From Conus ventricosus (lineage: Eukaryota > Mollusca > Gastropoda > Neogastropoda > Conidae), in the NCBI GenBank assembly GCA_018398815.1, contig CM031595.1:134419346-134483345 (forward strand): a stretch of DNA of 64,000 bases, in the 5' to 3' direction. Under the pieces are notes generated by a model that saw only the letters and a program-made list of their open reading frames with translations, did not search any database and was not told the origin of the DNA. How positions within the stretch are numbered: position 1 is the first letter of the stretch; each line of letters begins with the position of its first letter. This document shows positions 19,201-56,394 of this stretch, one piece after another. A program made the position numbers and the translations under genes.

Positions 19201-19254
19201 CTTCGTATTAAAAAACGGATAACCCTGACAGTTGTTTGTTTGACGGGTCGTTAT

Positions 19255-21000
19255 TTTTTGGTTACTTGTTCAGAGAACAGGAAGCGCGGCTTTTAGGGCA
19301 CTTTCGCCAAAAAACCGTGGTGGAGTAGCAAAGTGAGTCTGAATCGGTGTTTTCCTGTTCTTACTGTATCTTGCTCATCTTTTTCTAGCTGCCCCCTCTC
19401 TCTTGGCTGATTTTCCTCATTGCTTCAGTTTCTGTGACTTAAATTACAATCCCTAAGCAAGTGCCCTGTCTTATTGCAAACAAGATACAGGTACGCTCAT
19501 TCCTAGCCCACGTGGCTAGTGGTTTTCTCCCTGTCTTGCTCACGTGACGCGTGGGCCTACGAGGTGCTGTGTACTACTGACTCGTCGTGTGAGTCATGTG
19601 TGGCCTACCGTCCGCTGGTGGATATGCCTCCAGCCCTCTTCTTGTTGAGGGCAATGTGCGCCTCGCTTCCGGTAATCTCTGCCTGCTTCATGTACTTCAG
19701 CCTATTGTACGACCCTCTTTGAGGTGTATTGTGAGGCCCGGCCACAACGTTAAGTATCTGTTCTTTCTTACCAGTTGTTTGAGGCCTTCAAAAATCACAG
19801 TCACTTCACTCAGTTCTATCCATTGTTACAGTATATGATTAGTCTAACTCTAACTGTGTGTATGTCTCACCCTGTTCGATTCTCGCCTCGCGAAACTTTC
19901 GCCTTAAAAAACCTTTCTTCAGTCAAATCATATGCCTTTAGTATGCTTGTTTCACTTGTCAAAATCTCTCTGATCACCTTTGGGTAAGGTGGAAACTTTG
20001 TGTAAACGCACGAACTGTACAAGGCAGGACAGGTTTATTGCCAGTCATCTCGGGCCAGCCTCGTGCTCGGCAAACTATTCAAACCGATGATATAGGCATC
20101 GATCGAAATCAAGTTTCTTCTCTGACCAGTGGGAGTTTAGGTCTAGTGTGCGCATTTTAGTCTGCGGCCTACTGATCAGAACTGGTGTTTCGATTTCACT
20201 ACGATTTTCAGATTTTATTCTTTTCCTACTCAATTTGTTTGGCTAGGAATCTCTGATTCGTTCTGCCTTGCCCTTTGCAGCCGCACTCTCTGCATCTGCT
20301 CTAGCTTTGGCAGCTGCACTCTTGCCATCTGCTCTAGCTCTGTCAGCTGCACTCTCTGATTGCTCTCGCTTTAACAGCTTCATTGATTGCCCGTTAGCCT
20401 TCGACGCAAGCAGTTTCAGTTACGTCTCTCGGCTCGGGTTGCTGACTTATCTGTTTGAAGTCGAAGTTACTCATGGCCTCGCACCTTGAGTTTCTTTTAT
20501 ACAGCCTCGTAGTGTTCCTTTTCACAACTTCTTCTTTCGGCCTTTAATCTCTCTCCGTCTTTGCAGGTTTCAATGAATCTTACGCAATTATCTCCTGTAA
20601 GCCTAGTTTCTCCCTAAATAATCAGTTTCTCAATGGGAGTAAATACTTTCTTCAGCATCTTCTTTTTCTGGATGTTTTAGCTAACATAGAACAGTTACGC
20701 TTATAACCCCGGAGAAAGTCAGTTAAAGTTTACTAACACGTTAACGAGTACACTAACAGTCGGTAGTGTTCTAACACCACGGAGCCTTAATCTTAAACAC
20801 AGCTTTGTTGAGAGTTAAGCTAGAAAACCTCGTTATTCGTTTCTCTGAACGACCTTTGATTAATACAAAACACCCTAGACTCAAGTCAATACTCAACACT
20901 CAAAGCATAAATGGAAATAATTAGAAGAGCTAATTAAATTGCCTTTTGTTGGACGCTTCGCCCAGTACTACTCTAGTACTCACGTTGTTTCCCACTGAAA
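19255..21000 (-). pseudogene. gag of minus-strand Gypsy element, copy A
   Basis: The same gag region as at 26230-27411, more damaged. The zinc-knuckle region (about 19440-19500) is present but shifted out of frame by extra bases. The capsid-like segment near 19560-19800 and the Glu/Lys/Ala-rich coiled-coil segment near 20270-20500 are recognisable only by alignment to copy B. It lies just inside the 5' LTR at 21049-22334, as gag should. Confidence 0.6.
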
Positions 21001-21048
21001 AACTAATTTGGGGGGCATGCAATCTTTTTTTCCTGGCAGGTCGCACTT

Positions 21049-22334
21049 TGGTCCGGCGGGGGAAATCGTGAGGTATTGCTTTAAGTGCACTAAGTTTGAT
21101 GTATATTAGTCAGGGCTTAACACACAAGGTTATCTTTGCACTCATACACGCATATGCACACTCATGCGCACACCCCCCAAACATTCACTCTCTCTGGGAA
21201 TGGGATGTCAGCATTCGTTTCTCTCCTAACACAACTGAGAACAAGAATTTTACAAAGTCTAGGTACTTATAATTAATCATGTACATTAAATCACCACACA
21301 ATGAAATATCAAAACATAAAAGTCACTACATCCTCATCCGGGTTATAAATAAAATGACTTCTTACCTGGACCAGGTTTTCACACACACAACCACGTCTTT
21401 ACACACACCACAGTTCTTGAAAAAAAGTCTCTTACGTCTTATTCGCACTGCTTGTTGGTGATGCCCGTGTTTGACAGCTCCAGGGCAGGGACGGGGTCTT
21501 CGTGGTCGTCTTGGGTATCTGACGTCGACTCTTCTTCTGACGTTTCTTCACCACCTTGGGTTCAAATTCAGTTTGTCTGTCTTCACCACTCTGGGCTTCA
21601 ACTTTGTTTCCTTCTCGTTCAGCTTGTCTTTATTCTCTATGACCTTGCTGTCTCTTCTATCTCCAGACACGTTTCCTCGACCATTTCTCTGTCCTGCTCA
21701 CTCCTATCCTCTCTCTTCTCTGTTGCTTCTCTCTCTCTTTCTGGTGTGTTCTATGATCATGTTCTCCTCAGTTGTATATAGGGAGGGAGACAAAGGGCAT
21801 CCCCTTCGGCCATGCCTTTGTCCGCTGTTCTCAAACCCTAGTTCACAGTACCATGAATTTCCACTCGCAATTCACACATCAGCATTTCACACTCCCTACC
21901 TAATGATTAGCAAACACCACTTAGCCCAGATGGACATCGGAACATTCCGCCGACTTCAGGTGGTTACTTAACAGTCTTATCTTAAGGGGTGGTGTACAAC
22001 TTCACAGCATTCAACCAGCCTGACAATAGAACCAACACAGTGGACCACGCAATACCATCCAAACAAATCAAGACTCTGCTATTCACTGATGTTTAACAAG
22101 AACCTCAGCTGACCGTGATTTAGCGCTCACTTGGGGCCGAGGTCGTAGTGGTTCAACCTTCCCTTTAGCACCAAGCAGGTCGAAACTCTCTCCTAGGTGT
22201 TGTTTGTATCGGACACGTCGGCGTGTGCGTGGGTTAACGGTACCTGGTTTAACTGGTCAATTACCTATTGTATACCAGTACAATGTCCTTTGTCTCAAGC
22301 GTCTACTGCTTTTGAGCGGTTTCCGCTCCTTTGA
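21049..22334 (-). mobile_element. 5' LTR of minus-strand Gypsy-type element (copy A)
   Basis: The same LTR as at 918-2247 and 27887-29214, with many small deletions, and the terminal TG...CA is blurred by indels. On the left lies a degraded primer-binding-like stretch and then gag. On the right the 49-bp array starts with AAGCCCGG. It is contiguous with the 918 LTR through the intervening interior, so 918-22334 is the most economical full span of the element (interior about 18.8 kb, much of it the inserted Polinton). Confidence 0.75.
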
Positions 22335-22925
22335 AGCCCGGAAGCCTATTTCCTGTCGCTTACCTATATGGCATGGACTTAGCCCGGGAAGCCTATTTCC
22401 TTGCTCTAACCTCTATGGCCAAGGACATAAGCCGGAGCCTATTTCCTGTGCTCTAACCTCTTATGGCAAGGACATTGCCCGAGCCCCTTGTTCTGTTGCT
22501 CATAACCTCTATGGCAAGGACTTAGCGGAAGCCTATTTTCCTGTGCTCTAACCTTATGGCAAGGAAATTAGCCGGAAGCCTATTTCCTGTGCTCTAACCT
22601 ACTATGGCAAGGACATTAGCCCGGAAAGCCTATTTCTGTGCTCTAACCTCTATGGCAAGGACATTAGCCGAAGCCCTTCATTTCCTGTGCTCTACCTCTA
22701 TGCAAGACATTAGCCGGAAGCCTATAACTCTGCTTAACTCTATGGGCAAGGACATTAGCCCCGGAAGCCTATTTCCTCTGCTCTAACTCTATGGCAAGGG
22801 ACCATTAGCCCAGAAGCCCTATTTCCTTATGCTCTAAACTCTATGGACGGACATTAGCCTGGAAGCCCTATTTCCTCTAACTCTAACCTCTATGGCAAGG
22901 GACATTAGCCCGGAAGCATATTCCC
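22335..22925. repeat. 49-bp minisatellite, copy A right segment
   Basis: About 12 units of the same 49-bp repeat as at 1-917, with frequent one-base deletions. It begins at the outer edge of the LTR and ends at a degenerate unit before GCTGGCCACACGGGC. Confidence 0.9.
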
Positions 22926-23973
22926 AATCTGCTGGCCACACGGGCATTACTTCAAAGTCTTGTAGATGTGCGCTTGCTCATTTGATTCATATGAACGAGT
23001 GACTCGATCGTGAACCTGTTCTGATGACGTTAGTGGAGTACAATGTCCGGTACAATGATAACCTTACGGACGATCTTTGGATCGGCTTTTCCTGTTGCGG
23101 AAGGTCCGTGGTACCGTTCCTTGTCATCCACTTCATCGTAATAACCCTGCTGGCATGCTTTGATGTCACAGCGGTGGTTCCTGGCATGGTTTCTGGACTG
23201 TCGGTAGAAGTCGTTGTTGAGGCCTTTTGGAAGCGTTGTGTTTCCTTGTCTCGTGTATACCTTCTCTTGGTTAGGTGCTGCTTTGATGAATCGGGACTGT
23301 TCTTCTCTTTGTTGACCCCTGACAGCGCGACTCGCAGGGTCGTACTGGTCTCCCCCACTCGCCGCTTTGAAGTCGAGGGGTGGACGGTCATATGTCGATT
23401 TAAGGATGAAGCGATCCTACCAATGTGCCCACTGCTATGTGTCTTCCCGTGAAGACTTTTCGGAGTGCGGTTTTTTTTTGTACTGCAGTAGGTTTTGTTT
23501 CAGTACTTTTTCTTTCTGCAGGGACGTACAGGCTTTGTGATATCTATGGTCTGAACTTCAGCCATGATGAAGCAACAATCTACATAAACTGTTTTTTGGT
23601 TTTTCGTATGTTTCCACGTTTTGTCTTTGGTGGAAGGACCGTTTACGTTATTGACAGTATTAACTTAGAGATTATCCCGACTCCTATACAAATGGGAAAA
23701 TCTCCATTTGCCCGCGATATACTACAAGGGACCTTGAAATTTCGATAGCTTGATGACGGTATCGTTTATACTCAATAAGTTATTTTTCTTAGATGGGAAT
23801 TTAATGTTTTGCATTAGTGCGCTGTCTGTTATGACTCATTTACTATAGTTCATTTGTTCTGTTGCTACTGCCACTTCGATGTTCCTAGAAATATTGGTAG
23901 TGGTTTCAGTTTCGGTGTGTGATAAGAAGCATATATGTATGGATTAGTCATATTACACTTATCACTTGTGGTA
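22926..23973. other. Spacer between 49-bp array and mariner (copy A)
   Basis: About 1 kb of unique sequence shared with 29813-30889. Two opposed open frames of 134-142 codons (22987-23391 minus, 23024-23452 plus) are open only in this copy and broken in the other, and neither is recognised. I regard it as ordinary host DNA or an unrecognised element into which the mariner inserted. Confidence 0.5.
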
Positions 23974-25302
23974 CGGGGCCATCCCATAAGTTCTCGGATG
24001 CAGAAAACACGGACGTCATTATTTCAATTTATATCATCATCACAGCGATTTATTATTGCTATGACACAAAAAAATGATAAAAATCGTCAGAGCCAAATTT
24101 GTTTCTAGACAGCAAAATGGATGGCAGGGGGGGTTTTCAAAGTGAGCAGAGAGCTGTTTGGGGAGATTTCGTGCCATGATTTATTATGATATCTTCCGAG
24201 GGAAGCTTTCAAGGACAGTTTTATAAGTTTGACAAACTGTTTTGGCGACAAGGCTCCATCATTATCCACAGTCAATAGGTGGTTCAAAAGAATTTTCAGT
24301 TGGTACACTGTCGTTGGAAGATTGACCGTTGTGGGGACATCCAGTTTCAGTTCCTACCGATGGGACGTGAGCACATGTGAAGGCACTGATTACAGAAACA
24401 AAAAATCCTCGAATCACTGAGGATGAACTCAAGGATACTCTAACTTTCATCAGGACGCTTTAGACCGACCGCACCATTCTTCGGCCCCCCAAAACAATAA
24501 TTTTTTTCCCTCTCTGTACGGAAAGCGTTTGCGCCCGTTGGGTGCCCACCAGCTGTCTGGGGAGCAGATGAGGGCTAGAGTTGAATGGTGCAGTTTAAGC
24601 TGCAACACTTGACGGAGGAAGATCCGATAGGGTTATCCAATACGTTCACATGTGACCGGAAACCTATGTTACCAGTATGCCCCCGAAACAAAGCAGCAGT
24701 CGGTTCAGTTTGGCTGTTTCCGGGGAAACCCCCATGTGAACATTTTAGAGATCAAAAGCTGCACAAAGAAATGATGCAGTTTTCTTCGCACGATCCGGCT
24801 TTGACTTCTGTACCGCTTCTGGAAAGAAAGACAGTAAACGCCGAATGGTACATCAACACCTGCTTGCCAAAAGTGTTTGAGGCTTGGAGTGCACGGCGAC
24901 CACGGACCGGTATCGCCACCTACTCCTCACCACGACAACGCCAGCGCCCACACGGCAGGCTGCAATTTAGACTTTTGCAATGAGACCAGCAGTCAGCTCG
25001 TCATCATCCTCCGTATTCTCCCCCGACTTAGCCCCTTTTGACTTTTTTTGATCTCGTTTGAAAAAAACAGCTGAAGAGAAGAACTCGTTTGGAGCCCTGA
25101 AGATGCCGAGCGTTTTGCCGAAGGCTTGATTTCTGTATACTAAGTCGGAGTGGGCCGGGTGTGATGGATTCGTGGTTTAGTGAAGGATGGAAAAGTGCAT
25201 ACTCGCTGATGGAGGATACTTTGATGAATCACAACTGGGCTAGGTAGAAATGCCAGTGTACTTCCATCTTTAACCATCGGAGAACTTTGGGAGGTGGCAT
25301 CG
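23974..25302 (+). mobile_element. mariner element, copy A
   Basis: A 1.33-kb element bounded by TA dinucleotides (23972-23973 and 25303-25304) and by inverted ends: the left end contains GGCCATCCCATAAGTTCTCG and the right end is its imperfect complement. The transposase region (about 24170-25240) is the same as in copy B but with more frameshifts. Recognisable pieces are SLSTVNRWFK near 24260, the segment around WLFPGKPP near 24710-24740, and TVNAEWYINTCLPKVFEAWS near 24830. It is not functional as assembled. Confidence 0.85.
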
Positions 25303-26035
25303 TATGTGTAAGGTACCACAGTCACAGGGTTACAGTGTGTAAATGGATGTAATGGGGGTGGCCATCGTATGTTGTAAGGTCACAGTCACAGGGTTTACAG
25401 TTGAGTAATGTGGAATGGGGTGGCCATCGTATGTGTAAGGTCACAGGTAACAGGGTTACTGGTTGAGGTAATTGAGTAATGGGGTGGCTATCGTAGGGGT
25501 AGGTCACAGTCACGGGTTACAGTTGGTAAAATGAGTATGGGGTTGGCCTTCGTATGTGGTAAGGGTCCACAGTCACAGGGTTACAGTTGAGGTAAATGAG
25601 TAATGGGGGTGGACATCGTATGTGGAGTAAGGTCACAGTCACGGGTACAGTTGAGTAATGAGTAGGGGGTGGCATGTATGTGTAGGTCCAGTCACCGGGT
25701 TACAGTGAGTCAAATGAGTAATGGAGTGGCCATCGTAGGTGGTAAGGTCACGTAAGGGTTACCGTAGGGAGTAAATGAGTAATGGGGTGGCCATCGTATG
25801 TGGTAGGTCACAGGTCACAGGGGTTTCGTTGAGTTAAATGTAGTATGGGGGTGGCCTTCGTAGTGGTAAGGTCACAGTCACAGGGTCTTCAGTTGAGTAA
25901 ATGAGTAATGGGGTGGCCATTCTTTGTGGAAGGTCACAGTCCGGGTTAGTGAGTTAAAGAGTAATGGGGTGGCCATCGTATGTGGTAAGGTCACAGTCAC
26001 AGGGGTTACAGTTGAGTAAATGAGTAATGGGGTGG
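25303..26035. repeat. 62-bp minisatellite, copy A
   Basis: About 12 units, heavily indel-marked, of the repeat GGGGTGGCCATCGTATGTGG-TAAGGTCACAGTCACAGGG-TTACAGTTGAGTAAATGAG-TAAT. It starts directly at the mariner right end, whose terminal bases form part of the unit. It breaks off where duplication copy B begins. Confidence 0.95.
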
Positions 26036-26094
26036 CCAGTATTTAAAAAGGGATTAACCCTGCACAGTAGTTTTTTTGTAGGGTCGTTATTTTT

Positions 26095-27864
26095 TGGTTA
26101 CTTGTCAGAGAACGGGAATAGGCGGCTTTTAGGGCACTTCGCCCAAAAACGTGGTGGAGTAGCAAGTGAGTCTGAATCGGGGGTTTTCCTGTTCTCTTAC
26201 TGTCATCTTGCTCATCTTTTTTAATCTGCCTCTCCTTGGCCGGGATCCCTCATTGCTGCAGCTTTCTGTGACTTAAATATACAATCCCTAGCCAAGTGCC
26301 CTGTCTTATTGCACAGAAAACAGGTACGCTCATTCCTAGCCACGTGCTATTGGTTTTCACCCTTGTTTGCTCACGTGACCCGTGGGCCTACGGGTGTGTA
26401 CTACTGACTCGTCGTGTGAGTCATGTGCTGGCCTACCGTCCTCTGGATTGCCTCCAGGCCTCTTCTTGTTGGGGCAAGTCGCGCCTCGCTTCACGGTAAA
26501 TCTCTGCTGCTTCAAGTACTTCAGCTATTGTAACGACACCCCTCTCCTTGAGGTGTATTGTGAGGCCCGGCCCACAACCGTCAAGTATCTGTTCTTTCAT
26601 TACCAGTGTCTTGAGGCCTTCAAAATCACAGTCCCACTTCACTCAGTTCTATCCACTTGTTAAAGTAATGATCTAGTCTAACTCCGAACTGTGTGTATTT
26701 TCTCACCCTGTTCGATTCTCGCCTCGCGAAACTTACGCCTAAAACCTTCTTCAGTCAAATCATATGCCTTAGTACTGCTTGTTTACCTTGTCAAAATCTC
26801 TCTGATCACCTTTTGGGTAAGGTGGAAACTGTGTGTAACGCACGACCTGTCAACAAGGCAGACAGGTTTATTCCCCAGTCATCTTCGGGCCAGCCCTGTG
26901 CTCGGCAAACGATTCAAACCGACTGATATAGGCACGATCGAATCAGTTTCTTCTCTGAACAGGGGGAGTTTAGGTCTAGGTGCGCAATTTAGTCTGCGGC
27001 CACTGACTCAGAACTGGTTTCGATTTCACTACGATTTCAGATTTTATTCTTTCCCAACTAAATTTTGTTTGCTAGAATCTCTGATTCCGCTTCTGCTCTT
27101 CCCCTTGCAGCCGCACTCTCTGCATCTGCTCTAGCTTTGGAAAGCTGCACTCTCTGCATCTGCTCTAGCTCTGGCAGCTGCACTCTCTGCATCTGCTCTC
27201 GTTTTAACAGCTATACACTCTGCATCTGCTTTAGCCTTCGACGCAGCAGTTTCAAGTCTAAGTCCTCGGCCTCGGCGTTTGCTGATTCTGTTTGAAGTCG
27301 AAGTTTCTCAGCCTCGCCCTCTGAGTTTCTTTTAACAGCATCGAGCTGTTCCTTTTCAAACTTCCTTCTTTGGGCCCCTTTCATCTCTCTCAGTCTTCTG
27401 CTGAGTTTCAATGAATCTACGAAATTTCATCTCCTGTATAGCCTAGTTTCTCCCCTAAACTAATCAGTTTCTTCATGGGAGAAAAAACTTTCTTCAGCCA
27501 TCTTCTTTTCTGATATGTTTTGCAACACTAAAACAGTTACGCTTATAAACCCCGGGAAAGAAAGTCAGTTAACGTTTACTAAACTTTACGAGTACACTAA
27601 CCAGGGGTTTGTGTTCCTAACACCAAGGAGCCTTTAAATTTTAAAACCCACAGCTTCTTTTGAGAGTTAAGACTAGAACTCGTTCTTCGTTTCTTGAACG
27701 ACCTTTGATTAATACAAACACCCTACACACAAGTCAAAACTCAACACTCAAAGAACTAAAGGAAATATTAGAAGAGCTAATTAAAATTGCCTTTAGTGGA
27801 CCGCTTCGCCCCAGACTACTCTAGTACTCACTTTGTTTCCCTCCTGAAACAATTTGGGCCATGC
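26095..27864 (-). pseudogene. gag polyprotein of Gypsy element, copy B
   Basis: Gag, the structural protein that packages LTR-element RNA, on the minus strand just inside the 5' LTR. Order from the N-terminal side: (1) a charged coiled-coil stretch at 27411-27211, with REMKGAQRRKFEKEQLDA; (2) a capsid C-terminal/SCAN-like helical region at 26642-26433, with LVMKEQILDGCGPGLTIHLK followed by ERGVVTIAEVLEAAEIYREA; (3) a CCHC zinc knuckle near 26320-26275, CFLCNKTGHLARDC (C-x2-C-x4-H-x4-C). A SCAN-like capsid followed by a zinc knuckle is typical of Gmr1-like Ty3/Gypsy Gag, the family linked to the origin of vertebrate SCAN domains. Frames are broken between the three pieces, so it is a pseudogene or a poorly sequenced gene. 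The pol part does not follow, because the block ends at 26041. Confidence 0.75.
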
Positions 27865-27865
27865 A

Positions 27866-27883
27866 ATCCTGGCAGGCTCGCCA
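27866..27883 (-). other. tRNA primer-binding site of the Gypsy element
   Basis: On the plus strand, ATCCTGGCAGGCTCGCCA looks exactly like the 3' end of a tRNA (end of the T arm, acceptor strand, CCA). Its complement therefore lies on the minus strand immediately (3 nt) inside the LTR, as a primer-binding site does. The acceptor sequence is tRNA-Arg-like, but I cannot fix the isoacceptor without the host tRNAs. The copy A counterpart (about 21021-21047) is degraded. Confidence 0.65.
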
Positions 27884-27886
27884 CTT

Positions 27887-29214
27887 TGTCCCGGACGGGG
27901 AAATCGTGATGGTATTGCTTAAGTGCACTAAGTTGATGTATTATTAGTCAGGCTTAACACACAAGGTTATCTTGCACTCATACACGCATATGCACACTCA
28001 TGCGCACACCAAACATTCACCTCTCTCTGGGAATGGGATGTCCGCATTCGTTTCTCTCCTAACACAATGAGAACAAGAAATACAATTTCTATGCTACTTA
28101 TAATTAATCATGTACAATCAAATCACACACAATGAAATATCAAAACATAAAAAATCAATACATCCTAATCCCCGGGGTTTTAATAAAATGACTTCTTACC
28201 TGGCCCGGTTTTCACACACACAACCACGCTTTCACACCACACCACAGTTCTTGAAAAAAAGTCTCTTCACGTCTTCTTCAGCAGGGTTTATGGTGATGCC
28301 CTTGGTTGACTGGGTCCAGTTCAGGACTGGGTCTTCGTGGTCGTCTCTGGGATCTCGACGTCGAACTCTTCTTCTTCGCTTCTTCACCCACCTCTGGTTC
28401 AAATTCAGTTTGTCTGTCTTCACCCACCTCTGGGCTTCAACTTAGTTTCCTTCTCTTCCAGCTTGTCTTTAACTCTAAGACCTTGCTGTCTTTCATCTCC
28501 AGACCACTTTCTCTCGACCCTTTCTCTGTCCTGCTCACTCCTCTCCTCTTCTCCTCCCCTGTGCCTTCTCCTCTCTCTCTCCTGGGTTGTTCTCCTGACA
28601 CGTTTGTTCTCCCCCAGTTTATATAGGGAGGGAGACAAAGGATCCCCTTCGGGCCATGCCTTTGTCCCTGCTGCTTCTTTAAACCCCTAGTTCACAAGTT
28701 ACCCTGAATTCTCCACTCGCTACATTCCACACACATCAGCATTTACACACACCCCTACCTAATTGATTGCAAAAAACACACTTAGCCCCAGATGGACATC
28801 GAACATTCCGCCGACTTCGGTTTTTACTTAACACAGTAATTATCTTAAGGGGGGCTGCTACAACCTCCACACGCATTCAACCAGCTGACAATAGAACCAA
28901 CACAGTGACCCCGGCAATACCCTCCAAACAAATCCAAGACTCCTGCTCTTCACTGACTTTACACAAGAACCTCACTACCGAGCATTTAGCGCTCACTTGG
29001 GGCCCCGAGGTGTAGTGGTTACAACCCTTTCCCCCCCTTTGCCCCCAGGCAGGTCCGAACTCTTTTCCCCAGGTGTTGTTTGTATCTGACCACTTCGGCC
29101 GTGTGCGTGGGTAAGGTACCTGGTTAATTGGCAATTACCTATTTGTATACCACGTACAATGTCCCTTGTCTCCAAGCGTCTAATGCCTTTTGAGAGGTTT
29201 CACGCTCCTTGACA
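27887..29214 (-). mobile_element. 5' LTR of minus-strand Gypsy-type element (copy B)
   Basis: A 1.33-kb LTR with TG...CA ends, nearly identical to 918-2247. The minus strand carries TATATAAA near 28617-28625 and the same downstream GA-rich leader and AGGTAAGAAG donor-like site (near 28194-28203). The primer-binding site and gag lie on the left, and the 49-bp minisatellite resumes on the right with GCCCG, matching the probable target duplication at 913-917. Confidence 0.8.
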
Positions 29215-29812
29215 GCCCGAAGCCCTATTTCCTGTGCTCTAACCTCTATTGGCAAGGACATTAGCCGGAAGCCCTATTTCCTCTGCTCTAACCTCTATGG
29301 CAAGGACATTAGCCCGGAAGCCCTATTTCTGTGCTCTAACCTCTATGGCAAGGACATTAGCCCGGAAGCCCTATTTCCTGTGCTCTAACCTCTAGGCAAG
29401 GACATTACCCGGAAGCCCTATTTCCTGTGCTCTAACCTCTATGGCAAGGACATTAGCCCGAAGCCCTATTTCCTGTGCTCTAACCTCTATGGCAAGGACA
29501 TTAGCCCGAAGCCCTATTTCCTGTGCTCTAACCTCTATGGCAAGGACATTAGCCCGGAAGCCCTATTTCCTGTGCTCTAACCTCTATGGCAAGGACATTA
29601 GCCCGGAAGCCCTATTTCCTCTGCTCTAACCTCTATGGCAAGGACATTAGCCCGGAAGCCCTATTTCCTCTGCTCTAACCTCTATGGCAAGGACATTTAG
29701 CCCAAAGCCCTATTTCCTCTGCTCTAACCTCATGGCAAGGACATTAGCCTGGAAGCCCTATTTCCTCTACTCTAACCTCTATGGCAAGGACATTAGCCCG
29801 GAAGCCATATTC
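29215..29812. repeat. 49-bp minisatellite, copy B right segment
   Basis: About 12 units of the same 49-bp repeat as at 1-917, more regular than copy A. The first unit is truncated at its GCCCG, at the LTR edge. Confidence 0.95.
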
Positions 29813-30889
29813 CCTCAATCTGCTGGCCACACGGGCATACTTCTCAGTCTTGTAGATGTGAGCTTGCTCCATTCTGATTTCATATGACACGAGTGACTTC
29901 GATCAGAATGAACTGTTCTGATGAACGTTAGTGGAGTACAATGTCCGGTACAATGCTACCCTTCCGGACGATCTTTGGATGGTTTTCCTGTTGCGGAAGG
30001 TCCGTGGTACGTTCCTTGTCATCCACTTCATCCGATAAACCCTGCTTGCATGCTCTTGATGTCACAGCGGTTCCAGGCCATGGTTTCTGGCCTCCTGTCG
30101 CGTAGAACGTCGATGTTGAGGCTTTTGGGAAGCGTAGTGTTTCCTCTCGTCTCCGTGTATAACCTTCTCTTGGTTAGTGCTGCTTTGCATGAAACTCGGG
30201 ACATGTTCTTCTCTTTGTTGACCCTGACAGCGCAGACTCGCAGGGTCGTCTGGTCTCCCCACTTCGCCAGCTTTGAAGTCGAGGGGTGGAGGTCATATGT
30301 AGATTTAAGGATGAAGCCGATCCTAACAATGTGCCACTGCTATGTGTCCTTCCCGTGAAGACTTCTTCGGAGTGCGGTTTTTTTGTACGTGAAGGTAGGT
30401 TTTGTTTCAGCTACTTTTTCTTTCTGCAGGGACAGTACAGGCCTTTGTGATATCTTTGGTCTGAACGTCAGCCATGATGAAGCAACATCTTACATAACTG
30501 TTTTGGTTTTTCGTATGTTTCACGTTTGTCTTTGGTGGAAAGGACCGTTACGTTATCTGACAGTATTAACTTAGAGATTATCCCGCTCCTTACACATGGA
30601 AAATCTCCATTGCACCGCCGATATACTACAAGGGACCTTGAAATTTCGATAGCTCGATGACGGTATCGTTTATAACTCTATACGTTATTTTTCTCTTAGA
30701 TGGGATATTTAAATGTTTTGCATTAGTTCGCAGTCTGTTCATGACCCCATTTACTATAGTATCATTTGTTTCTGTTGCTACTGCCACTTCTGATGTTCCT
30801 AGAACTATTGGTAGTGGTTTCAGTTTCGGTGTGATAAGAAGCATCACTATGTATGGATTAGTCCATATACACTGTATCACTTGTTGGTA
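29813..30889. other. Spacer between 49-bp array and mariner (copy B)
   Basis: Counterpart of 22926-23973. A 121-codon minus-strand frame (30626-30991) overlaps the mariner end and is not conserved in copy A, and nothing is recognised. Confidence 0.5.
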
Positions 30890-32194
30890 CGAGGGCCATC
30901 CCATAAGTTCTCGGATGCCAGAAACCACTGACGTCATTATTTCAATTTTTATATCATCATCACAAGCGATCTTATAATAGCTATGACACAAAAATGATAA
31001 AAATCGTCAGAGCCAAATTTGTTCTAGACAGCAAAATGGATGGCAAGGGGGACGGTTTTCAAAGTGACGCAGAGAGCCTGTCTTGGGAGATTTTCGTGCC
31101 ATGATTTATTATGACTATCTTCGAAGGAAGTCTTTCAAGAAAGTTTTATAAGTTTTGACAAACTGTTTTGGCGACAAGGCTCCATCATTATCCACAGTCC
31201 ATAGGTGGTTCAAAGAATTTCAGTTTGGTACAATGTCGTTGGAAGATCGTGACCGTTGTGGACATCCAGTTTCAGTTACTACCGATGGGAACGTGAGCAC
31301 AGTGAAGGCAATGATTACAGAAAATCCTCGAATCACTGAGGATGAACTCAAGGATACTCTAAACCTTTCATCAGAAGCTTAGACCGACCGCATTCTTCGC
31401 ACAATCTCTCTGTACGGAAGCGTTGCGCCCGTTGGGTGCCCCACCAGCTGACTGGGGAGCAGATGAGGGCTAGAGTTGAATGGTGCCAGTTTATGCTGCA
31501 AACACTTGACGGAGGAAGATCAATAGGGTCTCCAATATCGTCACAGGTGACGAAACCTATGTTTACCAGTATGACCCCGAAACAAAGCAGCAGTCGTCAG
31601 TTTGGCTGTTTCCAGGGGAAACCCCACATGTGAAATTTTAGAGATCAAAAAGCTGCACAAAGCAAATGATTGCAGTTTTCTTCGCAAGATCCGGCCATGT
31701 GACTACTGTACCGCTTCTGGAAAGAAAGACAGTAAACGCCGAATGGTACATCAACACCTGCCTGCCAAAAGTGTTTGAGGCTTGGAGTGCACGGCGACCA
31801 CGGACCGGTATCCGCCACCTACTCCTTCACCACGACAACGCCAGCGCCCACACGGCAGCTGCAACTTTAGACTTCTTGCAAGAGAACAGCGTGCAGCTCG
31901 TCACTCATCCTCCGTATTCTCCCGACTTAGCCCCTTTTGACTTCTTTTTGTTTCCTCGTTTGAAAAAACAGCTGAAAGGAAAGCCGTTTGAGAGCCCTGA
32001 AGATGCCCGAGCGTTTGCCGAAGGCTTGATTTCTGGTATACCTAAGTCGGAGTGGGCCGGGTGATGGATTCGTGGTTTAGAAGGATGGAAAAGTGCATAC
32101 ACGCTGATGGAGGATACTTTGAAAAGATGGGCTAGGTAAGAAATGCCAGTGTACTTCCATCTTTACCCATCGGAGAACTTATGGGTGGCCATCG
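30890..32194 (+). mobile_element. mariner element, copy B
   Basis: A 1305-bp element, the normal mariner size. It is flanked by TA at 30888-30889 and 32195-32196. The terminal inverted repeats are about 27 bp: left CGAGGGCCATCCCATAAG then TTCTCGGATG, right its complement with three or four differences. It encodes a DD34D transposase (next entry). Its right end runs straight into the 62-bp minisatellite, which shares the outer 17 or so bases of the right terminal repeat. Confidence 0.92.
31101..32136 (+). pseudogene. mariner transposase (DD34D), frameshifted
   Basis: The cut-and-paste transposase of a mariner element. The N-terminal DNA-binding part has a helix-turn-helix readable as SLSTVHRWFKEFQFGT at about 31188-31235, then a second HTH region (ITEDELKDTLNLSSEA) ending near 31380. 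The catalytic Asp residues are all visible: TGDETY (31549-31551), HHDN (31834-31836) and PFDFF (31939-31941). The last two are separated by 34 residues, as in true mariners. The C-terminus ends GGYFEKMG near 32136. An in-frame stop near 31149 and frameshifts near 31380-31440, 31515, 31635 and 32060 break it. Length (about 345 codons overall) is normal. The catalytic triad is intact, so the damage is either recent decay or sequencing error. Confidence 0.9.
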
Positions 32195-33553
32195 TATGTG
32201 GTAAGGTCACAGTCACAGGTTACAGTTGAGTAAATGAGTAATGGGGTGGCCATCGTATGTGTAAGGTCACAGTCACAGGGTTACAGTTGAGTAAATGAGT
32301 AAGGGCCTCGATGTGGTAAGGTCACAGTCCGGTTCAGTTGTAATGGTAATGGGGCTATCGTAGAAGGTCACACACAGGGTTACAGTTGAGTAAATGAGTA
32401 ATGGGGTGGCCATCGTATTGGTAAGGTCACAGTCACAGGTTACAGTTGAGAAATGAGTAATGGGGTGGCCATCGTATGTGGTAAGGTCACAGTCACAGGG
32501 TTACAGTTGAGTAAATGAGTAATGGGGTGGCCATCGTATGTGGTAAGGTCACAGCCCAAAAGGTTACAGTTGAGTAAATGAGTAATGGGGTGGCCATCGT
32601 ATGTGGTAAGGTCACAGTCACAGGGTTACAGTTGAGTAAATGAGTAATGGGGTGGCCATCGTATGTGGTAAGGTCACAGTCACAGGGTTACAGTTGAGTA
32701 AATGAGTAATGGGGTGGCCATCGTATGTGGTAAGGTCACAGTCACAGGGTTACAGTTGAGTAAATGAGTAATGGGGTGGCCATCGTATGTGGTAAGGTCA
32801 CAGTCACGGGTTACAGTTGAGTAAATGAGTAATGGGTGGCCATCGTATGTGGTAAGGTCACAGTCACAGGGTTACAGTGAGTAAATGAGTAATGGGGTGG
32901 CCATCGTATGTGGTAAGGTCACAGTCACAGGGTTACAGTTGAGTAAATGAGTAATGGGGTGGCCATCGTATGTGGTAAGGTCACAGTCACAGGGTTACAG
33001 TTGAGTAAATGAGTAATGGGGTGGCCATCGTATGTGGTAAGGTCACAGTCACAAGGGTTACAGTTGAGTAAATGAGTAATGGGGTGGCCATCGTATGTGG
33101 TAAGGTCACAGTCACGGGGTTACAGTTGAGTAAATGAGTAATGGGGTGGCCATCGTATGTGGTAAGGTCACAGTCACAGGGTTACAGTTGAGTAAATGAG
33201 TAATGGGGTGGCCATCGTATGTGGTAAGGTCACAGTCACAGGGTTACAGTTGAGTAAATGAGTAATGGGGTGGCCTCGTATGTGGTAAGGTCACAGTCAC
33301 AGGGTACAGTTGAGTAAATGAGTAATGGGGTGGCCATCGTAGTGGTAAGGTCACAGTCACAGGGTACAGTTGAGTAAATGAGTAATGGGGTGGCCATCGT
33401 ATGTGGTAAGGTCACAGTCACAGGGTTACAGTTGAGTAAATGAGTAAGGGGTGGCATCGTATGTGGTAAGGTCACAGTCACGGTTACAGTTGAGTAAATG
33501 AGTAATGAGGTGGCCATCTATGTGGTAAGTCAAGTCACAGGGTACAGTTGACT
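32195..33553. repeat. 62-bp minisatellite, copy B
   Basis: About 22 regular units with the same 62-bp consensus as at 25303-26035. The first unit is the flank of the mariner right end. The array passes into the 38-bp satellite at a shared ATGAGT. Confidence 0.95.
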
Positions 33554-36500
33554 AATGAGTTTTCAGTAAAGTGTGGGTACAGAGCTACTAGATGAGTCTT
33601 CAGTAAAGTGCTGGGTACAGAGCTACTACATGAGTCTTCAGTAAAGTGCTGTACAGAGCTACTAATGAGTCTTCAGTAAAGTGCGGGGTACAGAGCTACT
33701 AGATGAGTCTTCAGTAAAGTGCTGGGTACAGAGCTACTAGATGAGTCTTCAGTAAAGTGCTGGGTACAGAGCTACTATGAGTCTTCAGTAAAGTGCTGGG
33801 TACAGAGCTACTAGATGAGTCTTCAGTAAAGTGCGGGGTACAGAGCTACTAGATGAGTCTTCAGTAAAGTGCTGGGTACAGAGCTACTACATGAGTCTTC
33901 GTAAAGTGCTGGGTCAGAGCTACTAGATGAGTCTTCAGTAAAGTGCGGGGTACAGAGCTACTACATGAGTCTTCAGTAAAGTGCTGGGTACAGAGCTACT
34001 ACATGAGTCTTCATAAAGTGCTGGGTACAGAGCTACTACATGAGTCTTCAGTAAAGTGCTGGGTTACAGAGCTACTACATGAGTCTTCAGTAAAGTGCTG
34101 GGTACAGAGCTACTACATGAGTCTTCAGAAAAGTGCTGGGTACAGAGCTACTACATGAGTCTTCAGTAAAGTGTGGTACAGAGCCTACTACATGAGTCTT
34201 CAGTAAAGTGCTGGGTACAGAGCTACTACATGAGTCTTCAGTAAAGTGCGGGGTACAGAGCTACTACATGAGTCTTCAGTAAAGTGCTGGGTACAGAGCT
34301 ACTACATGATCTTCAGTAAAGTGCTGGGTACAGAGCTACTACATGAGTCTTCAGTAAAGTGCTGGGTACAGAGCTACTACATGAGTCTTCAGTAAAGTGC
34401 TGGGTACAGAGCTACTACATGAGTCTTCAGTAAAGTGCTGGGTACAGAGCTACTACATGAGTCTTCATTTAAAGTGCTGGGTACAGAGCTACTAACATGA
34501 GTCTTCAGTAAAGTGCTGGGTACAGAGCTACTAGATGAGTCTTCAGTAAAGTGCTGGGTACAGAGCTACTAGATGAGTCTTCAGTAAAGTGCTGGGTACA
34601 GAGCTACTACATGAGTCTTCAGTAAAGTGCTGGGTACAGAGCTACTACATGAGTCTTCAGTAAAGTGCTGGGTACAGAGCTACTACATGATCTTCAGTAA
34701 AGTGCTGGGTACAGAGCTACTACATGAGTCTTCAGTAAAGTGCTGGTACAGAGCTACTACATGAGTCTTCAGTAAAGTGCTGGGTACAGAGCTACTACAT
34801 GAGTCTTCAGTAAAGTGCTGGGTACAGAGCTACTACATGAGTCTTCAGTAAAGTGCTGGGTACAGAGCTACTACATGAGTCTTCAGTAAAGTGCTGGGTA
34901 CAGAGCTACTACATGAGTCTTCAGTAAAGTGCTGGGTACAGAGCTACTACATGAGTCTTCAGTAAAGTGCTGGGTACAGAGCTACTACATGAGTCTTCAG
35001 TAAGTGCTGGGTACAGAGCTACTAATGAGTCTTCAGTAAAGTGCGGGGTACAGAGCTACTACATGAGTCTTCAGTAAAGTGCGGGGTACAGAGCTACTAC
35101 ATGAGTCTTCAGTAAAGTGCTGGGTACAGAGCTACTACATGAGTCTTCAGTAAGTGCTGGGTACAGAGCTACTACATGAGTCTTCAGTAAAGTGCTGGGT
35201 ACAGAGCTACTACATGAGTCTTCAGTAAAGTGCTGGGTACAGAGCTACTACATGAGTCTTCATAAAGTGCTGGGTACAGAGCTACTAGATGAGTCTTCAG
35301 TAAAGTGCTGGGTACAGAGCTACTAGATGAGCCCTTCAGTAAAGTGCTGGGTACAGAGCTATAATGAGTCTTCAGTAAAGTGCTGGGTACAGAGCTACTA
35401 CATGAGTCTTCAGTAAAGTGCTGGGTACAGAGCTACTACATGAGTCTTCAGTAAAGTGCTGGGTACAGAGCTATACATGAGTCTTCAGTAAAGTGCTGGG
35501 TAAAAGAGCTACTACATGAGTCTTCAGTAAAGTGCTGGGTACAGAGCTACTACATGAGTCTTCAGTAAAGTGCTGGGTACAGAGCTACTACATGAGTCTT
35601 CAGTAAAGTGCTGGGTACAGAGCTACTACATGAGTCTTCAGTAAAGTGCTGGGTACAGAGCTACTACATGAGTCTTCAGTAAAGTGCTGGGTACAGAGCT
35701 ACTACATGAGTCTTCAGTAAAGTGCTGGGTACAGAGCTACTACATGAGTCTTCAGTAAAGTGCTGGGTAAGAGCTACTACATGAGTCTTCAGTAAAGTGC
35801 TGGGTACAGAGCTACTACATGAGTCTTCAGTAAAGTGCTGGGTACAGAGCTACTACATGAGTCTTCAGTAAAGTGCTGGGTACAGAGCTACTACATGAGT
35901 CTTCAGTAAAGTGCTGGTACAGAGCTACTACGAGAGTCTTCATAAAGTGCTGGTACAGAGCTACTACATGAGTCTTCGTAAAGTGCTGGGTACAGAGCTA
36001 CTACATGAGTCTTCTTGATAAAGTGCGGGGTACAGAGCTACTACATGAGTCTTCAGTTTTTAAAGTGCTGGGTACAGAGCTACTACATGAGTCTTCAGTA
36101 AAGTGCGGGGTACAGAGCTACTACAATGAGTCTTCAGTAAAGTGCTGGGTACAGAGCTACTACATGAGTCTTCAGTAAAGTGCGGGGTACAGAGCTACTA
36201 CATGAGTCTTCAGTAAAGTGCTGGGTACAGAGCTACTACATGAGTCTTCAGTAAAGTGCTGGGTACAGAGCTACTACATGAGTCTTCAGTAAAGTGCGGG
36301 GTACAGAGCTACTACATGAGTCTTCAGTAAAGTGCTGGGTACAGAGCTACTACATGAGTCTTCAGTAAAGTGCTGGTACAGAGCTACTACATGAGTCTTC
36401 AGTAAAGTTGCTGGTACAGAGCTACTACATGAGTCTTCAGAAAAAGTGCTGGGTACAGAGCTACTACATGAGTCTTCAGTAAAGTGCTGGGTACAGAGCT

Positions 36501-39500
36501 ACTACATGAGTCTTCAGTAAAGTGCTGGGTACAGAGCTACTAGATGAGTCTTCAGTAAAGTGCTGGGTACAGAGCTACTAGATGAGTCTTCAGTAAAGTG
36601 CTGGGTACAGAGCTACTACATGAGTCTTCAGTAAAGTGCTGGGTACAGAGCTACTACATGAGTCTTCAGTAAAGTGCTGGGTACAGAGCTACAATGAGTC
36701 TTCAGTAAAGTGCTGGGTACAGAGCTACTAGATGAGTCTTCAGTAAAGTGCTGGGTACAGAGCTACTACATGAGTCTTCAGTAAAGTGCTGGGTACAGAG
36801 CTACTACATGAGTCTTCAGTAAAGTGCTGGGTACAGAGCTACTACATGAGTCTTCAGTAAAGTGCTGGTACAGAGCTACTACATGAGTCTTCAGTAAAGT
36901 GCTGGTACAGAGCTACTACATGAGTCTTCAGTAAAGTGCTGGGTACAGAGCTACTACATGAGTCTCAGTAAAGTGCTGGGTACAGAGCTACTACATGAGT
37001 CTTCAGTAAAGTGCTGGTACAGAGCACTACATGAGTCTTCAGTAAAGTGCTGGGTACAGAGCTACTACATGAGTCTTCAGTAAGTGCTGGGTACAGAGCT
37101 ACTACATGAGTCTTCAGTAAAGTGCTGGTACCGAGCTACTACATGAGTCTTCAGTAAAGTGCTGGGTACAGAGCTACTACATGAGTCTTCAGTAAAGTGC
37201 TGGTACAGAGCTACTACATGAGTCTCAGTAAAGTGCTGGGTACAGAGTACTACATGAGTCTTCAGTAAAGTGCTGGGTACAGAGCTACTACATGAGTCTT
37301 CAGTAAAGTGCTGGTACAGAGCTACTACATGAGTCTTCAGTAAAGTGCTGGGTACAGAGCTACTACATGAGTCTTCAGTAAAGTGCTGGGTACAGAGCTA
37401 CTACATGATGTCTTCAGTAAAGTGCTGGGTACAGAGCTACTACATGAGTCTTCAGTAAAGTGCTGGGTACAGAGCTACTACATGAGTTTTCAGTAAAGTG
37501 CGGGGTACAGAGCTACTACATGAGTCTTCAGTAAAGTGCTGGGTACAGACTACTACATGAGTCTTCAGTAAAGTGCTGGGTACAGAGCTACTACATGAGT
37601 CTTCAGTAAAGTGCTGGTACAGAGCTACTACATAGTCTTCAGTAAAGTGCTGGGTACAGAGCTACTACATGAGTCTTCAGTAAAGTGCTGGGTACGAGCT
37701 ACTACATGAGTCTTCAGTAAAGTGCTGGGTACAGATACTACATGAGTCTTCAGTAAAGTGCTGGGTACAGAGCTACTACATGAGTCTTCAGTAAAGTGCT
37801 GGGTACAGAGCTACTACATGAGTCTTCAGTAAAGTGCTGGGTACAGAGCTACTACATGAGTCTTCAGTAAAGTGCTGGGTACAGAGCTACTACATGAGTC
37901 TTCAGTAAAGGCTGGGTACAGAGCTACTACATGAGTCTTCAGTAAAGTGCGGGGTTTACAGAGCTACTACATGAGTCTTCAGTAAAGTGCTGGGTACAGA
38001 GTACTACATGAGTCTTCAGTAAAGTGCTGGGTACAGAGCTACTACATGAGTTTCAGTAAAGTGCTGTCAGAGTACTACATGAGTCTCAGTAAGTGCTGGT
38101 ACAGAGCTCTACAAGTCTTCAGTAAAGTGCTGGGTACAGAGCTACTACATGAGTCTTCAGTAAAGTGCTGGGTACAGAGCTACTACATGAGTCTTCAGTA
38201 AAGTGCTGGGTACAGAGCTACTACATGAGTCTTCAGTAAAGTGCTGGGTACAGAGCTACTACATGAGTCTTCAGTAAAGTGCTGGTACAAGAGCTACTAC
38301 ATGAGTCTTCAGTAAAGTGCTGGTACAGAGCTACTACATGAGTCTTCAGTAAAGTGCTGGGTACAGAGCTACTACATGAGTCTTCAGTAAAGTGCTGGTA
38401 CAGAGCTACTACATGAGTCTTCAGTAAAGTGCTGGGTACAGAGCTACTACATGATCTTCAGTAAAGTGCTGGTACAGAGCTACTAGATGAGTCTTCAGTA
38501 AAGTGCTGGGTACAGAGCTACTACATGATCTTCAGTAAAGTACGGGGTACAGAGCTACTACATGGGTCTTCAGTAAAGTGCTGGGTACAGAGCTACTACA
38601 TGAGTCTTCAGTAAAGTGCTGGGTACAGAGCTACTACATGAGTCTTCAGTAAAGTGCGGGTACAGAGCTACTAGATGAGTCTTCAGTAAAGTGCTGGGTA
38701 CAGAGCTACTACATGAGTCTTCAGTAAAGTGCTGGGTACAGAGCTACTACATGAGTCTTCAGTATTGATCTAAAGTGCGGGGTTTACAGAGCTACTACAT
38801 GAGTCTTCAGTAATGCTCTAAAGTGCTGGTACAGAGCTTCTATGAGTGCTTCAGTATTGATCTAAAGTGCTGGTACAGAGCTACTACATGAGTCTTCAGT
38901 ATTGATCTAAAGTGCTGGGTACAGAGCTACTACATGAGTCTTCAGTATTGATCTAAAGTGCTGGGTACAGAGCTACTAGATGAGTCTTCAGTAAAGTGCT
39001 GGTACAGAGCTACTAGAATGAGTCTTCAGTAAAGTGCTGGGTACAGAGCTACTAGATGAGTCTTCAGTAAAGTGCTGGGTACAGAGCTACTAGATGAGTC
39101 TTCAGTAAAGTGCTGGTACAGAGCTACTACATGAGTCTTCAGTAAAGTGCTGGTACAGAGCTACTAGATGAGTCTTCAGTAAAGTGCTGGTACAGAGCTA
39201 CTACATGAGTCTTCAGTAAATGCTGGAACAGAGCTACTACATGAGTCTTCAGTAAAGTGCTGGGTACAGAGCTACTACATGAGTCTTCAGTAAAGTGCTG
39301 GGTACAGAGCTACTACAGAGTCTTCAGTAAAGTGCTGGGTACAAGAGCTACTACATGAGTCTTCAGTAAAGTGCTGGGTACAGAGCTACTACATGAGTCT
39401 TCAGTAAAGTGCTGGGTACAGAGCTACTACATGAGTCTTCAGTAAAGTGCTGGGTACAGAGCTACTACATGAGTCTTCAGTAAAGTGCTGGGTACAGAGC

Positions 39501-42500
39501 TACTACATGAGTCTTCAGTAAAGTGCTGGGTACAGAGCTACTACATGAGTCTTCAGTAAAGTGCTGGGTACAGAGCTACACATGATCTTCATAAAGTGCT
39601 GGGTACAGAGCTACTACAAGTCTTCAGTAAAGTGCTGGGTACAGAGCTACTACATGAGTCTTCAGTAAAGTGCTGGTACAGAGCTACTAACATGAGTCTT
39701 CAGTAAAGTGCTGGGTAAGAGCTACTACATGAGTCTTCAGTAAAGTGCTGGTACAGAGCTACTACATGAGTCTCAGTAAGTGCTGGGTACAGAGCTACAA
39801 CAGAGTCTTCAGTAAAGTGCTGGTACAGAGCTACTACATGAGTCTTCAGTAAAGTGCTGGTACAGAGCTACTACATGAGTCTTCAGTAAAGTGCTGGTAC
39901 AGAGCTACTACATGAGTCTTCAGTAAAGTGCTGGGTACAGAGCTACTACATGAGTCTTCAGTAAAGTGCTGGGTACAGAGCTACTACATGAGTCTTCAGT
40001 AAAGTGCTGGGTACAGAGCTACTACATGAGTCTTCAGTAAAGTGCTGGGTACAGAGCTACTACATGAGTCTTCAGTAAAGTGCTGGTACAGAGCTACTAC
40101 ATGAGTCTTCAGTAAAGTGCTGGGTACAGAGCTACTACATGAGTCTTCAGTAAAGTGCTGGGTACAGAGCTACTACATGAGTCTTCAGTAAAGTGCTGGG
40201 TACAGAGCTACTACATGAGTCTTCAGTAAAGTGCTGGGTACAGAGCTACTACATGAGTCTTCAGTAAAGTGCTGGGTACAGAGCTACTACATGAGTCTTC
40301 AGTAAAGTGCTGGGTACAGAGCTACTAGATGAGTCTTCAGTAAGTGCTGGGTACAGAGCTACTACATGAGTCTTCAGTAAAGTGCTGGGTACAGAGCTAC
40401 TACATGGGTCTTCAGTAAAGTGCTGGGTACAGAGCTACTACATGAGTCTTCAGTAAAGTGCTGGGTACAGAGCTACTACATGAGTCTTCAGTAAAGTGCT
40501 GGGTACAGAGCTACTAGATGAGTCTTCAGTAAAGTGCTGGGTACAGAGCTACTACATGAGTCTTCAGTAAAGTGCTGGGTACAGAGCTACTACATGAGTC
40601 TTCAGTATTGATCTAAAGTGCTGGTACAGAGCTACTACATGAGTCTTCAGTATTGATCTAAAGTGCTGGGTACAGAGCTACTACATGAGTCTTCAGTATT
40701 GATCTAAAGTGCTGGTACAGAGCTACTACATGAGTCTTCAGTATTGATCTAAAGTGCTGGGTACAGAGCTACTACATGAGTCTTCAGTATTGATCTAAAG
40801 TGCTGGGTACAGAGCTACTAGATGAGTCTTCAGTAAAGTGCTGGTACAGAGCTACTAGATGAGTCTTCAGTAAAGTGCTGGGTACAGAGCTACTAGATGA
40901 GTCTCAGTAAAGTGCTGGGTACAGAGCTACTAGATGAGTCTTCAGTAAAGTGCTGGGTACAGAGCTACTACATGAGTCTTCAGTAAAGTGCTGGGTACAG
41001 AGCTACTAGATGAGTCTTCAGTAAAGTGCTGGGTACAGAGCTACTACATGAGTCTCAGTAAAGTGCTGGGTACAGAGCTACTACATGAGTCTTCAGTAAA
41101 GTGCTGGGTACAGAGCTACTACATGAGTCTTCAGTAAAGTGCTGGTAACAGAGCTACTACATGAGTCTTCAGTAAAGTGCTGGGTACAGAGCTACTACAT
41201 GAGTCTTCAGTAAAGTGCTGGGTACAGAGCTACTACATGAGTCTTCAGTAAAGTGCTGGGTACAGAGCTACTACATGAGTCTTCAGTAAAGTGCTGGGTA
41301 CAGAGCTACTACATGAGTCTTCAGTAAAGTGCTGGGTACAGAGCTACTAGATGAGTCTTCAGTAAAGTGCTGGGTACAGAGCTACTACATGAGTCTTCAG
41401 TAAAGTGCTGGGTACAGAGCTACTACATGAGTCTTCAGTAAAGTGCTGGTACAGAGCTACTACATGAGTCTTCAGTAAAGTGCTGGGTACAGAGCTACTA
41501 CATGAGTCTTCAGTATTGATCTAAAGTGCTGGGTACAGAGCTACTAGATGAGTCTTCAGTAAAGTGCTGGGTACAGAGCTACTAGATGAGTCTTCAGTAA
41601 AGTGCTGGGTACAGAGCTACTACATGAGTCTTCAGTAAAGTGCTGGGTACAGAGCTACTACATGAGTCTTCAGTAAAGTGCTGGGTACAGAGCTACTACA
41701 TGAGTCTTCAGTAAAGTGCTGGGTACAGAGCACTACATGAGTCTTCAGTATTGATCTAAAGTGCTGGGTACAGAGCTACTAGATGAGTCTTCAGTAAAGT
41801 GCTGGGTACAGAGCTACTACATGAGTCTTCAGTAAAGTGCTGGGTACAGAGCTACTACATGAGTCTTCAGTATTGATCTAAAGTGCTGGGTACAGAGCTA
41901 CTACATGAGTCTTCAGTATTGATCTAAAGTGCTGGTACAGAGCTACTACATGAGTCTTCAGTATTGATCTAAAGTGCTGGGTACAGAGCTACTACATGAG
42001 TCTTCAGTATTGATCTAAAGTGCTGGGTACAGAGCTACTACATGAGTCTTCAGTATTGATCTAAAGTGCTGGGTACAGAGCTACTACATGAGTCTTCAGT
42101 ATTGATCTAAAGTGCTGGGTACAGAGCTACTACATGAGTCTTCAGTATGATCTAAAGTGCTGGGTACAGAGCTACTACATGAGTCTTCAGTATTGATCTA
42201 AAGTGCTGGGTACAGAGCTACTACATGATCTCAGTATTGATCTAAAGTGCTGGGTACAGAGCTACTACATGAGTCTTCAGTATTGATCTAAAGTGCTGGG
42301 TACAGAGCTACTACATGAGTCTTCAGTAAAGTGCTGGGTACAGAGCTACTAGATGAGTCTTCAGTAAAGTGCTGGGTACAGAGCTACTAGATGATCTTCA
42401 GTAAAGTGCTGGGTACAGAGCTACTAGATGAGTCTTCAGTAAAGTGCTGGGTACAGAGCTACTAGATGAGTCTTCAGTAAAGTGCTGGGTACAGAGCTAC

Positions 42501-42604
42501 TAGATGAGTCTTCAGTAAAGTGCTGGGTACAGAGCTACTAGATGAGTCTTCAGTAAAGTGCTGGGTACAGAGCTACTAGATGAGTCTTCAGTATTGATCT
42601 AAAG
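33554..42604. repeat. 38-bp satellite with 46-bp variant, 9 kb
   Basis: Roughly 230 head-to-tail copies of GAGTCTTCAGTAAAGTGCTG-GGTACAGAGCTACTACAT (38 bp). Two variable characters recur: the unit end is TACAT or TAGAT, and a long form (46 bp) carries an extra TTGATCTA after CAGTA. Long units cluster at 38753-38960, 40596-40800, 41510, 41745 and 41865-42290. The patterns starting at 38753 and 40596 match unit by unit over at least 11 units, which implies a higher-order duplication of about 1.84 kb. No coding potential is claimed. Confidence 0.97.
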
Positions 42605-54150: not shown

Positions 54151-54689
54151 AACATCAGAACGTCACGCAAGGTAAGACAAAACCGTTATTTTTCGTAGCT
54201 AGTAATCCTCAACGATGCCGCTATTTTGAAAGTTGACAACGATTGTAGTAGTGGTAGCTCTAGCAGTAATAGTAATGTTAATACTAATTCTGGCAGTCAC
54301 GTAGGTGCAGTTGCTGCCCCTGTTGCTATATTGCTACTGTACCCCTACAAAAGTTCAAGAGGAGAACGATTCCAGAGTTCCACGGAAGAGGACGATAACC
54401 TCAACATTCAACTGTGACTGCGGACGAAAGATACATGCACTGGGAAAAAAGTGTTTGAGGGTGGGACACAAACTTTTTGTGATAAGGCCATCCCCTGCAC
54501 CAAGGGAAGGGTGGCTTAGTGGTTGGCACTGCATAAAACAAGACAACACATCACTATTTGATAAAGAATAGTATACAATACCAAGCAACACTTTACAATT
54601 GAACTGTACAATTCAATGCTCTATGATAAAAGAATACTACACAATGCTTGACAATAAAACATTACAACACACCACTCTGTATAACTGGA

Positions 54690-56203: not shown

Positions 56204-56365
56204 AGCCATTGACTGTCTCTTCGACAGGACTGAGATGGACAGACTTTAAATGTTGAGAGATCATTCACTCAAGGCATTAATCAGATCTGGAGATGCTCCT
56301 CTCAAGACTGCTTAACAACCGAAGGCTTGGCGCCGCACAGCAGGTAATTTTTTCTGATGCGCACT
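56204..56365 (-). pseudogene. Small basic ORF downstream of ATPase, cut by gap
   Basis: Immediately after the ATPase on the minus strand, the sequence starting near 56365 is broken by stops but readable as KKLPAVRRQAFGC and, in a shifted frame, GASPDLINALSE followed by SLNI. A small Lys/Arg-rich protein of this kind often follows the packaging ATPase in adintovirus-type elements and is thought to be a core or virion protein. This is a family-level inference. The copy is incomplete because of the gap. Confidence 0.35.
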
Positions 56366-56394
56366 GACATGGTACTTATTTTCAGACGTAGACC

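Follow-up and report, generated by a model that had tools for sequence, protein, structure and literature searches.

The mariner element, the adjoining 62-bp array and their second copy

The window, meaning the whole stretch of 64,000 bp that was analysed, contains a mariner-like element whose right end opens into a minisatellite with a 62-bp unit, followed by a 9-kb minisatellite with a 38-bp unit. The following features were delineated at the locus:

30888..32196, plus strand: mariner-like element bounded by TA, with a DD34D transposase broken over three frames (alignment of the terminal inverted repeats, Pfam, match to Mos1)
30888..30917, plus strand: left terminal inverted repeat with its TA, which aligns to the right end on the opposite strand at 90% identity over 30 columns
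32168..32196, minus strand: right terminal inverted repeat including TA, whose outer end and TA open the 62-bp unit (alignment)
32181..33560, plus strand: 62-bp minisatellite of 23 units, counting the mariner end as number 1 (wrap-around alignment, TRF)
33551..42593, plus strand: 38-bp minisatellite of 235.5 copies (TRF), adjoining the 62-bp array at a common ATGAGT
19205..26038, plus strand: 6.8-kb segment abutting its own second copy (26039-32903) and containing the mariner and the array (self-BLAST)
23972..25302, plus strand: second, noisy mariner copy
25290..26038, plus strand: second, noisy 62-bp array of about 12 units, cut at the duplication boundary (wrap-around alignment, TRF)

The left end of the mariner reads TACGAGGGCCATCCCATAAGTTCTCGGATG (at 30888) and the right end, as reverse complement, TACGATGGCCA-CCCATAAGTTCTCCGATGG (finishing at 32196); the outer part of the right end reads ATGGGGTGGCCATCG. 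The termini are inverted repeats of about 30 bp that start with TACGA and have TA on both sides, TA being the sequence that mariners use as insertion site. The catalytic part matched Mos1 (phmmer, E = 1.1e-16), and transposase pieces scored above the Pfam cut-offs for DDE_3 (33.2 bits, cut-off 28.6) and Transposase_1 (24.7 bits, cut-off 24). A 73-residue piece is a candidate for the N-terminal HTH domain, with scores below the cut-offs for both families: 23.6 bits for HTH_32 against 33.7, and 17.3 bits for HTH_48 against 24.1. In frame 31003 the second and third catalytic D were found by eye to be 34 residues apart (HDNASAHT...YSPDLAPFD), and this spacing and the YSPDLAP motif are the rule in the mariner DD34D family. 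Stops are present in all three forward frames, and the frequent indels of the assembly cloud any reading of the element's intactness. In a protein search that returned 1674 proteins at E up to 0.001, the closest among the 120 listed was 76% identical across the whole read-through query. Searches with the catalytic piece gave 11 pattern matches in viral contigs and 33 in bacterial and archaeal contigs with none confirmed in either set, both of which have little bearing on eukaryotes, and BLAST found no further mariner copies in the 64-kb window beyond the two at the duplicated locus.

The 62-bp unit consists of ATGGGGTGGCCATCGTA, which is the outer 15 nt of the mariner right end followed by the target TA, and the 45-bp flank TGTGGTAAGGTCACAGTCACAGGGTTACAGTTGAGTAAATGAGTA. 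The first-pass annotation had described the period as the outer end of the terminal repeat plus about 46 bp of flank; this composition was right and the flank is 45 bp. Its statements that the right end lies inside every unit of the adjoining array, and that each unit therefore holds a partial terminal end beside TA, were borne out by the wrap-around alignment and by shuffles that were never as good, and its count of about 22 units agrees with the 22 later junctions that remain when the mariner end is included as the first of 23 units. When the 23 rows were aligned to the consensus there were 1371 matched columns, 7 substitutions, 2 inserted bases and 47 deleted bases. None of the 7 substitutions was recurrent among the units of the main array, while the noisy array has two recurrent substitutions, each shared by two units and possibly due to read errors. 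TRF reported the main array with period 62 from 32364 and as a 432-bp multiple from 32183. The G run of the mariner end (ATGGGTGG) is one base shorter than that of the unit (ATGGGGTGG), which is probably a reading error given the many indels of the assembly. The 45-bp flank had a single 11-bp match in the 64-kb window outside the two arrays, and 25 nt of the unit gave no matches in a set of viral contigs only, which has little bearing on eukaryotes.

Self-BLAST showed 19205-26038 and 26039-32903 to be direct copies of one another with no gap between them. Across four non-array pieces of this duplication there are 169 substitutions and 452 indel events, and differences so dominated by indels are as in uncorrected long reads. 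This part of the assembly is probably unpolished or duplicated. Given the abutting duplication and the indel-dominated differences, the second copy was rejected as an independent locus; whether real or an assembly fault, it is the same insertion copied and provides no independent evidence. A 160-bp repeat is present at 3455-3614 (reversed), 19205-19364 and 26038-26197, and its end falls at the boundary of the 6.8-kb duplication.

The shared end sequence and the junctions of the units

The longest exact match between the right end and the unit was 14 nt, compared with a maximum of 12 nt in 20,000 dinucleotide shuffles of the unit, and 17 nt were matched if one base in the G run was allowed. The outer 17-mer of the left end (reversed) matched the unit with 2 mismatches, and the best of 20,000 shuffles had 3. 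Within the window ATGGGRTGGCCNTCGTA was found at 25 sites with at most 2 mismatches (0.03 expected). The main array accounts for 17 of them, the noisy array for 7 and the left mariner end for 1; the right end of the mariner itself was missed owing to its shorter G run. Given that both mariner ends carry the 17 nt, these belong to the mariner and were not borrowed from the array. Two of the 17 nt are not the same in the two ends (A/C and G/A). At the A/C site the unit agrees with the right, adjacent end, and at the G/A site the unit is without the A of the left end, a reading clouded by the indel in the G run. One could suppose that the mariner simply landed beside an unrelated array with a unit resembling its end, since mariners insert at TA and the region is rich in arrays. 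However, none of the 20,000 shuffles equalled the match for either end and the match is in register with the TA, and a chance resemblance was therefore rejected as extremely unlikely.

Only at 32173 is the motif ATGGG(G)TGGCC preceded by GAGAACTT, the inner part of the terminal repeat, and the later units are without it. Among the 22 later junctions, 18 could be read by pattern and at all 18 the 8 nt before this motif were AATGAGTA; in the noisy array the same 8 nt were found at 3 of the 5 junctions readable by pattern. This single shared junction points to a single founding duplication. It had been suggested that an ATGGG microhomology started the slippage, but that argument turned out to be circular in that it compares the terminal repeat with its own copy. 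The true border lies between AATGAGTA and GAGAACTT before ATGGGG, which have little in common, and direct repeats of 5-10 bp are not visible there. The flank as it was before the duplication is no longer present because the 62-bp array passes into the 38-bp array at ATGAGT.

The array is found on only one side of the mariner. An unfiltered search of the window with the 200-bp left flank gave, beyond the flank itself and its second copy, only 14- and 17-bp matches outside the arrays, and alignments of the left flank to the unit were no better than those of shuffled sequences (865, 670, 893 and 458 of 1000 shuffles, by stretch and strand). A relation between the left flank and the unit was therefore rejected.

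Order of events and alternative explanations

Since the unit joins a mariner end, a TA and a flank, the array was amplified after a mariner end lay there, and from this composition together with the one-sidedness of the array we strongly infer that amplification followed the mariner insertion. The complete history that we find very probable, and the simplest, is a mariner insertion, a single tandem duplication across the junction and then expansion of the array. The mariner would have inserted at a TA situated 45 bp from the present border with the 38-bp minisatellite, and the site before insertion would read ...TTGG-TA-TGTGGTAAGG... with the flank in single copy. A single tandem duplication of the stretch that covers the last 15 nt of the right end, the TA and the next 45 bp would then have produced two 62-bp copies. 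Unequal exchange, gene conversion or replication slippage acting on these long identical copies might have brought their number to 23. The first step was presumably a replication or repair slip that occurred once. The basis for this history is the composition of the unit, its position at the mariner end, the one-sidedness, the shared junction and the near-identity of the units, the last of which can reflect homogenisation as well as youth. The match between mariner and unit is no longer than 17 bp, a single locus with a non-independent second copy has to carry the order of events, and indel errors are numerous in the assembly that contains both 62-bp arrays.

Tandem arrays with a period of at least 30 bp (19 TRF ranges) occupy 16,497 of the 64,000 bases (15,690 by a shorter list), or 7,464 bases (6,657 by the shorter list) without the 9-kb 38-bp array, with both copies of the duplicated arrays included in this coverage. 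Because BLAST placed the mariner at no other site in the window, the majority of these arrays arose without it. The first-pass annotation had seen in the locus a possible route by which a transposon creates a minisatellite. The part of this proposal that stands is that the unit contains a mariner end and flank that were later amplified. As regards the cause of growth, the mariner may simply happen to lie in a stretch prone to minisatellites; because the window has many minisatellites with no visible mariner end, we credit the mariner with supplying sequence and not with causing growth. There is no sign of the transposase taking part.

The array might instead be older than the present mariner, having been seeded by the end of an earlier mariner or MITE, with the present element reaching its edge through recombination between its own right end and a unit, or else by inserting as a second event. 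An array that starts exactly at the mariner end would be expected from recombination in the shared 17 bp as well, but two mariner events are then required, the left flank carries no trace of an array and, at the one clear differing site, the unit agrees with the adjacent right end, so that we consider this order unlikely. An active role of the transposase, in which cuts at the terminal repeat and TA of the right end were followed by gap repair that looped on a 62-bp template and added units, would fit with the presence in every unit of the outer terminal repeat and the TA where such a cut would fall. However, the units are without the inner half of the terminal repeat, which according to work on Mos1 is reportedly required for binding, the transposase frame is broken here (in a noisy assembly) and the other minisatellites of the window grew with no visible mariner end. 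Repair of breaks at transposon ends is named as a source of tandem copies in a review (PMC9659126), and with this included we still regard addition of units by the transposase as highly unlikely. The wider proposal, that mariner cutting at its own right end drove the expansion and that such arrays recur beside other copies of the family, seems to us very doubtful; if true, it would mean that a cut-and-paste element leaves behind a growing array carrying the outer part of its end.

A further possibility is that the 62-bp array was cut from the 38-bp minisatellite next to it and that an old 38-bp unit received the mariner end. By eye a kinship of the two units was promising, given that the arrays meet at the common ATGAGT and that GTAA.GT and TGAGT occur in both. 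The similarity, however, was not above that of shuffled sequences: dinucleotide shuffles were as similar in 820 of 3000 cases and mononucleotide shuffles in 263 of 3000, the corresponding figures for a 46-bp variant of the 38-bp unit being 1169 and 649 of 3000. Under a different scoring, 903 of 2000 shuffles were as similar for the whole unit and 710 of 2000 for the flank part. No significant similarity between the 38-bp unit and the flank of the 62-bp unit was found by shuffle comparison. The kinship was thus rejected and there is very little chance that the array had this origin. The 46-bp variant contains an extra 8 bp (TATTGATC) and is found near 42000-42300 and at the far edge of the 38-bp array.

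Related minisatellites and other elements in the window

The locus fits a known kind, the minisatellites derived from transposable elements, in that the unit contains the element's own sequence. In the human genome, 136 such minisatellites were reported in which partial Alu sequence lies next to a complete or almost complete Alu (Ahmed and Liang 2012, PMC3389668); in that study short direct repeats together with the other established mechanism accounted for only 6% of the starts, most of which were left without an explanation. The human Alu arrays (PMC3389668) are alike in that part of a transposable element was turned into a tandem array, whereas here the unit spans the end of a DNA transposon and 45 bp of flank. 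In the Haber-Louis model a short single-copy stretch is duplicated by slippage or unequal exchange and then expands through longer homology (PMC3389668, PMC6947457). The course of duplication followed by expansion is the same as that proposed here, but the model requires border repeats of 5-10 bp and, with the pre-duplication flank lost, none are demonstrable at this locus.

Minisatellites and satellites from terminal inverted repeats, from other non-coding parts and from mariners are listed in reviews (PMC9659126, PMC12628747). In Xenopus laevis the terminal repeat of the Xmix MITE is given as source of the Xstir satellite (Table 1, PMC9659126). There, too, a satellite unit goes back to a DNA transposon's terminal inverted repeat, whereas here only the outer 15 nt were used and most of the unit is flank. 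Mboumar, a mariner listed inside satellite DNA of Messor ants (Table 1, PMC9659126), is alike in that a mariner is physically joined to a tandem repeat; there the mariner lies within the satellite and here the array is built from the mariner end. No exact parallel to an array whose unit combines 15 nt from a mariner end with TA and a 45-bp flank was found in what was mainly open literature. The locus is a readable single case in which the junction between mariner and flank dates the birth of a minisatellite and reveals its founding unit. Should other copies of the family bear arrays as well, it would become possible to test whether tandem repeats start from mariner ends, for which one locus is insufficient.

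Several other elements were noted in the window. The LTRs of an LTR retrotransposon lie on the minus strand within a 49-bp minisatellite at 918-2247 and 27887-29214 (and 21051-22330). By eye, a purine tract (GTGGGGGGAATT) is found before one LTR and a primer-site-like stretch (TGGCGAGCC) after the other, a gag-type zinc knuckle is located at 26203-26400, and a GCCCG/GCCCA pair in the flanks resembles a 5-bp target duplication. Arrays of 55-58 bp are present on opposite strands at 54677-55133 and 61717-62021, and their consensus units look by eye like one family. On the minus strand at 56312-56791 lies a fragment of an A32-like packaging ATPase, a type that occurs in Polinton/Maverick elements, which has no Pfam match of its own while many of its listed relatives carry PF04665. 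Among the 120 relatives listed of 617, a Littorina saxatilis protein was 73% identical to this fragment over 66% of its length. An open frame at 58051-58240 had no Pfam match, and from its appearance by eye we take its start to resemble a glutamine-synthetase-like (lengsin) protein.
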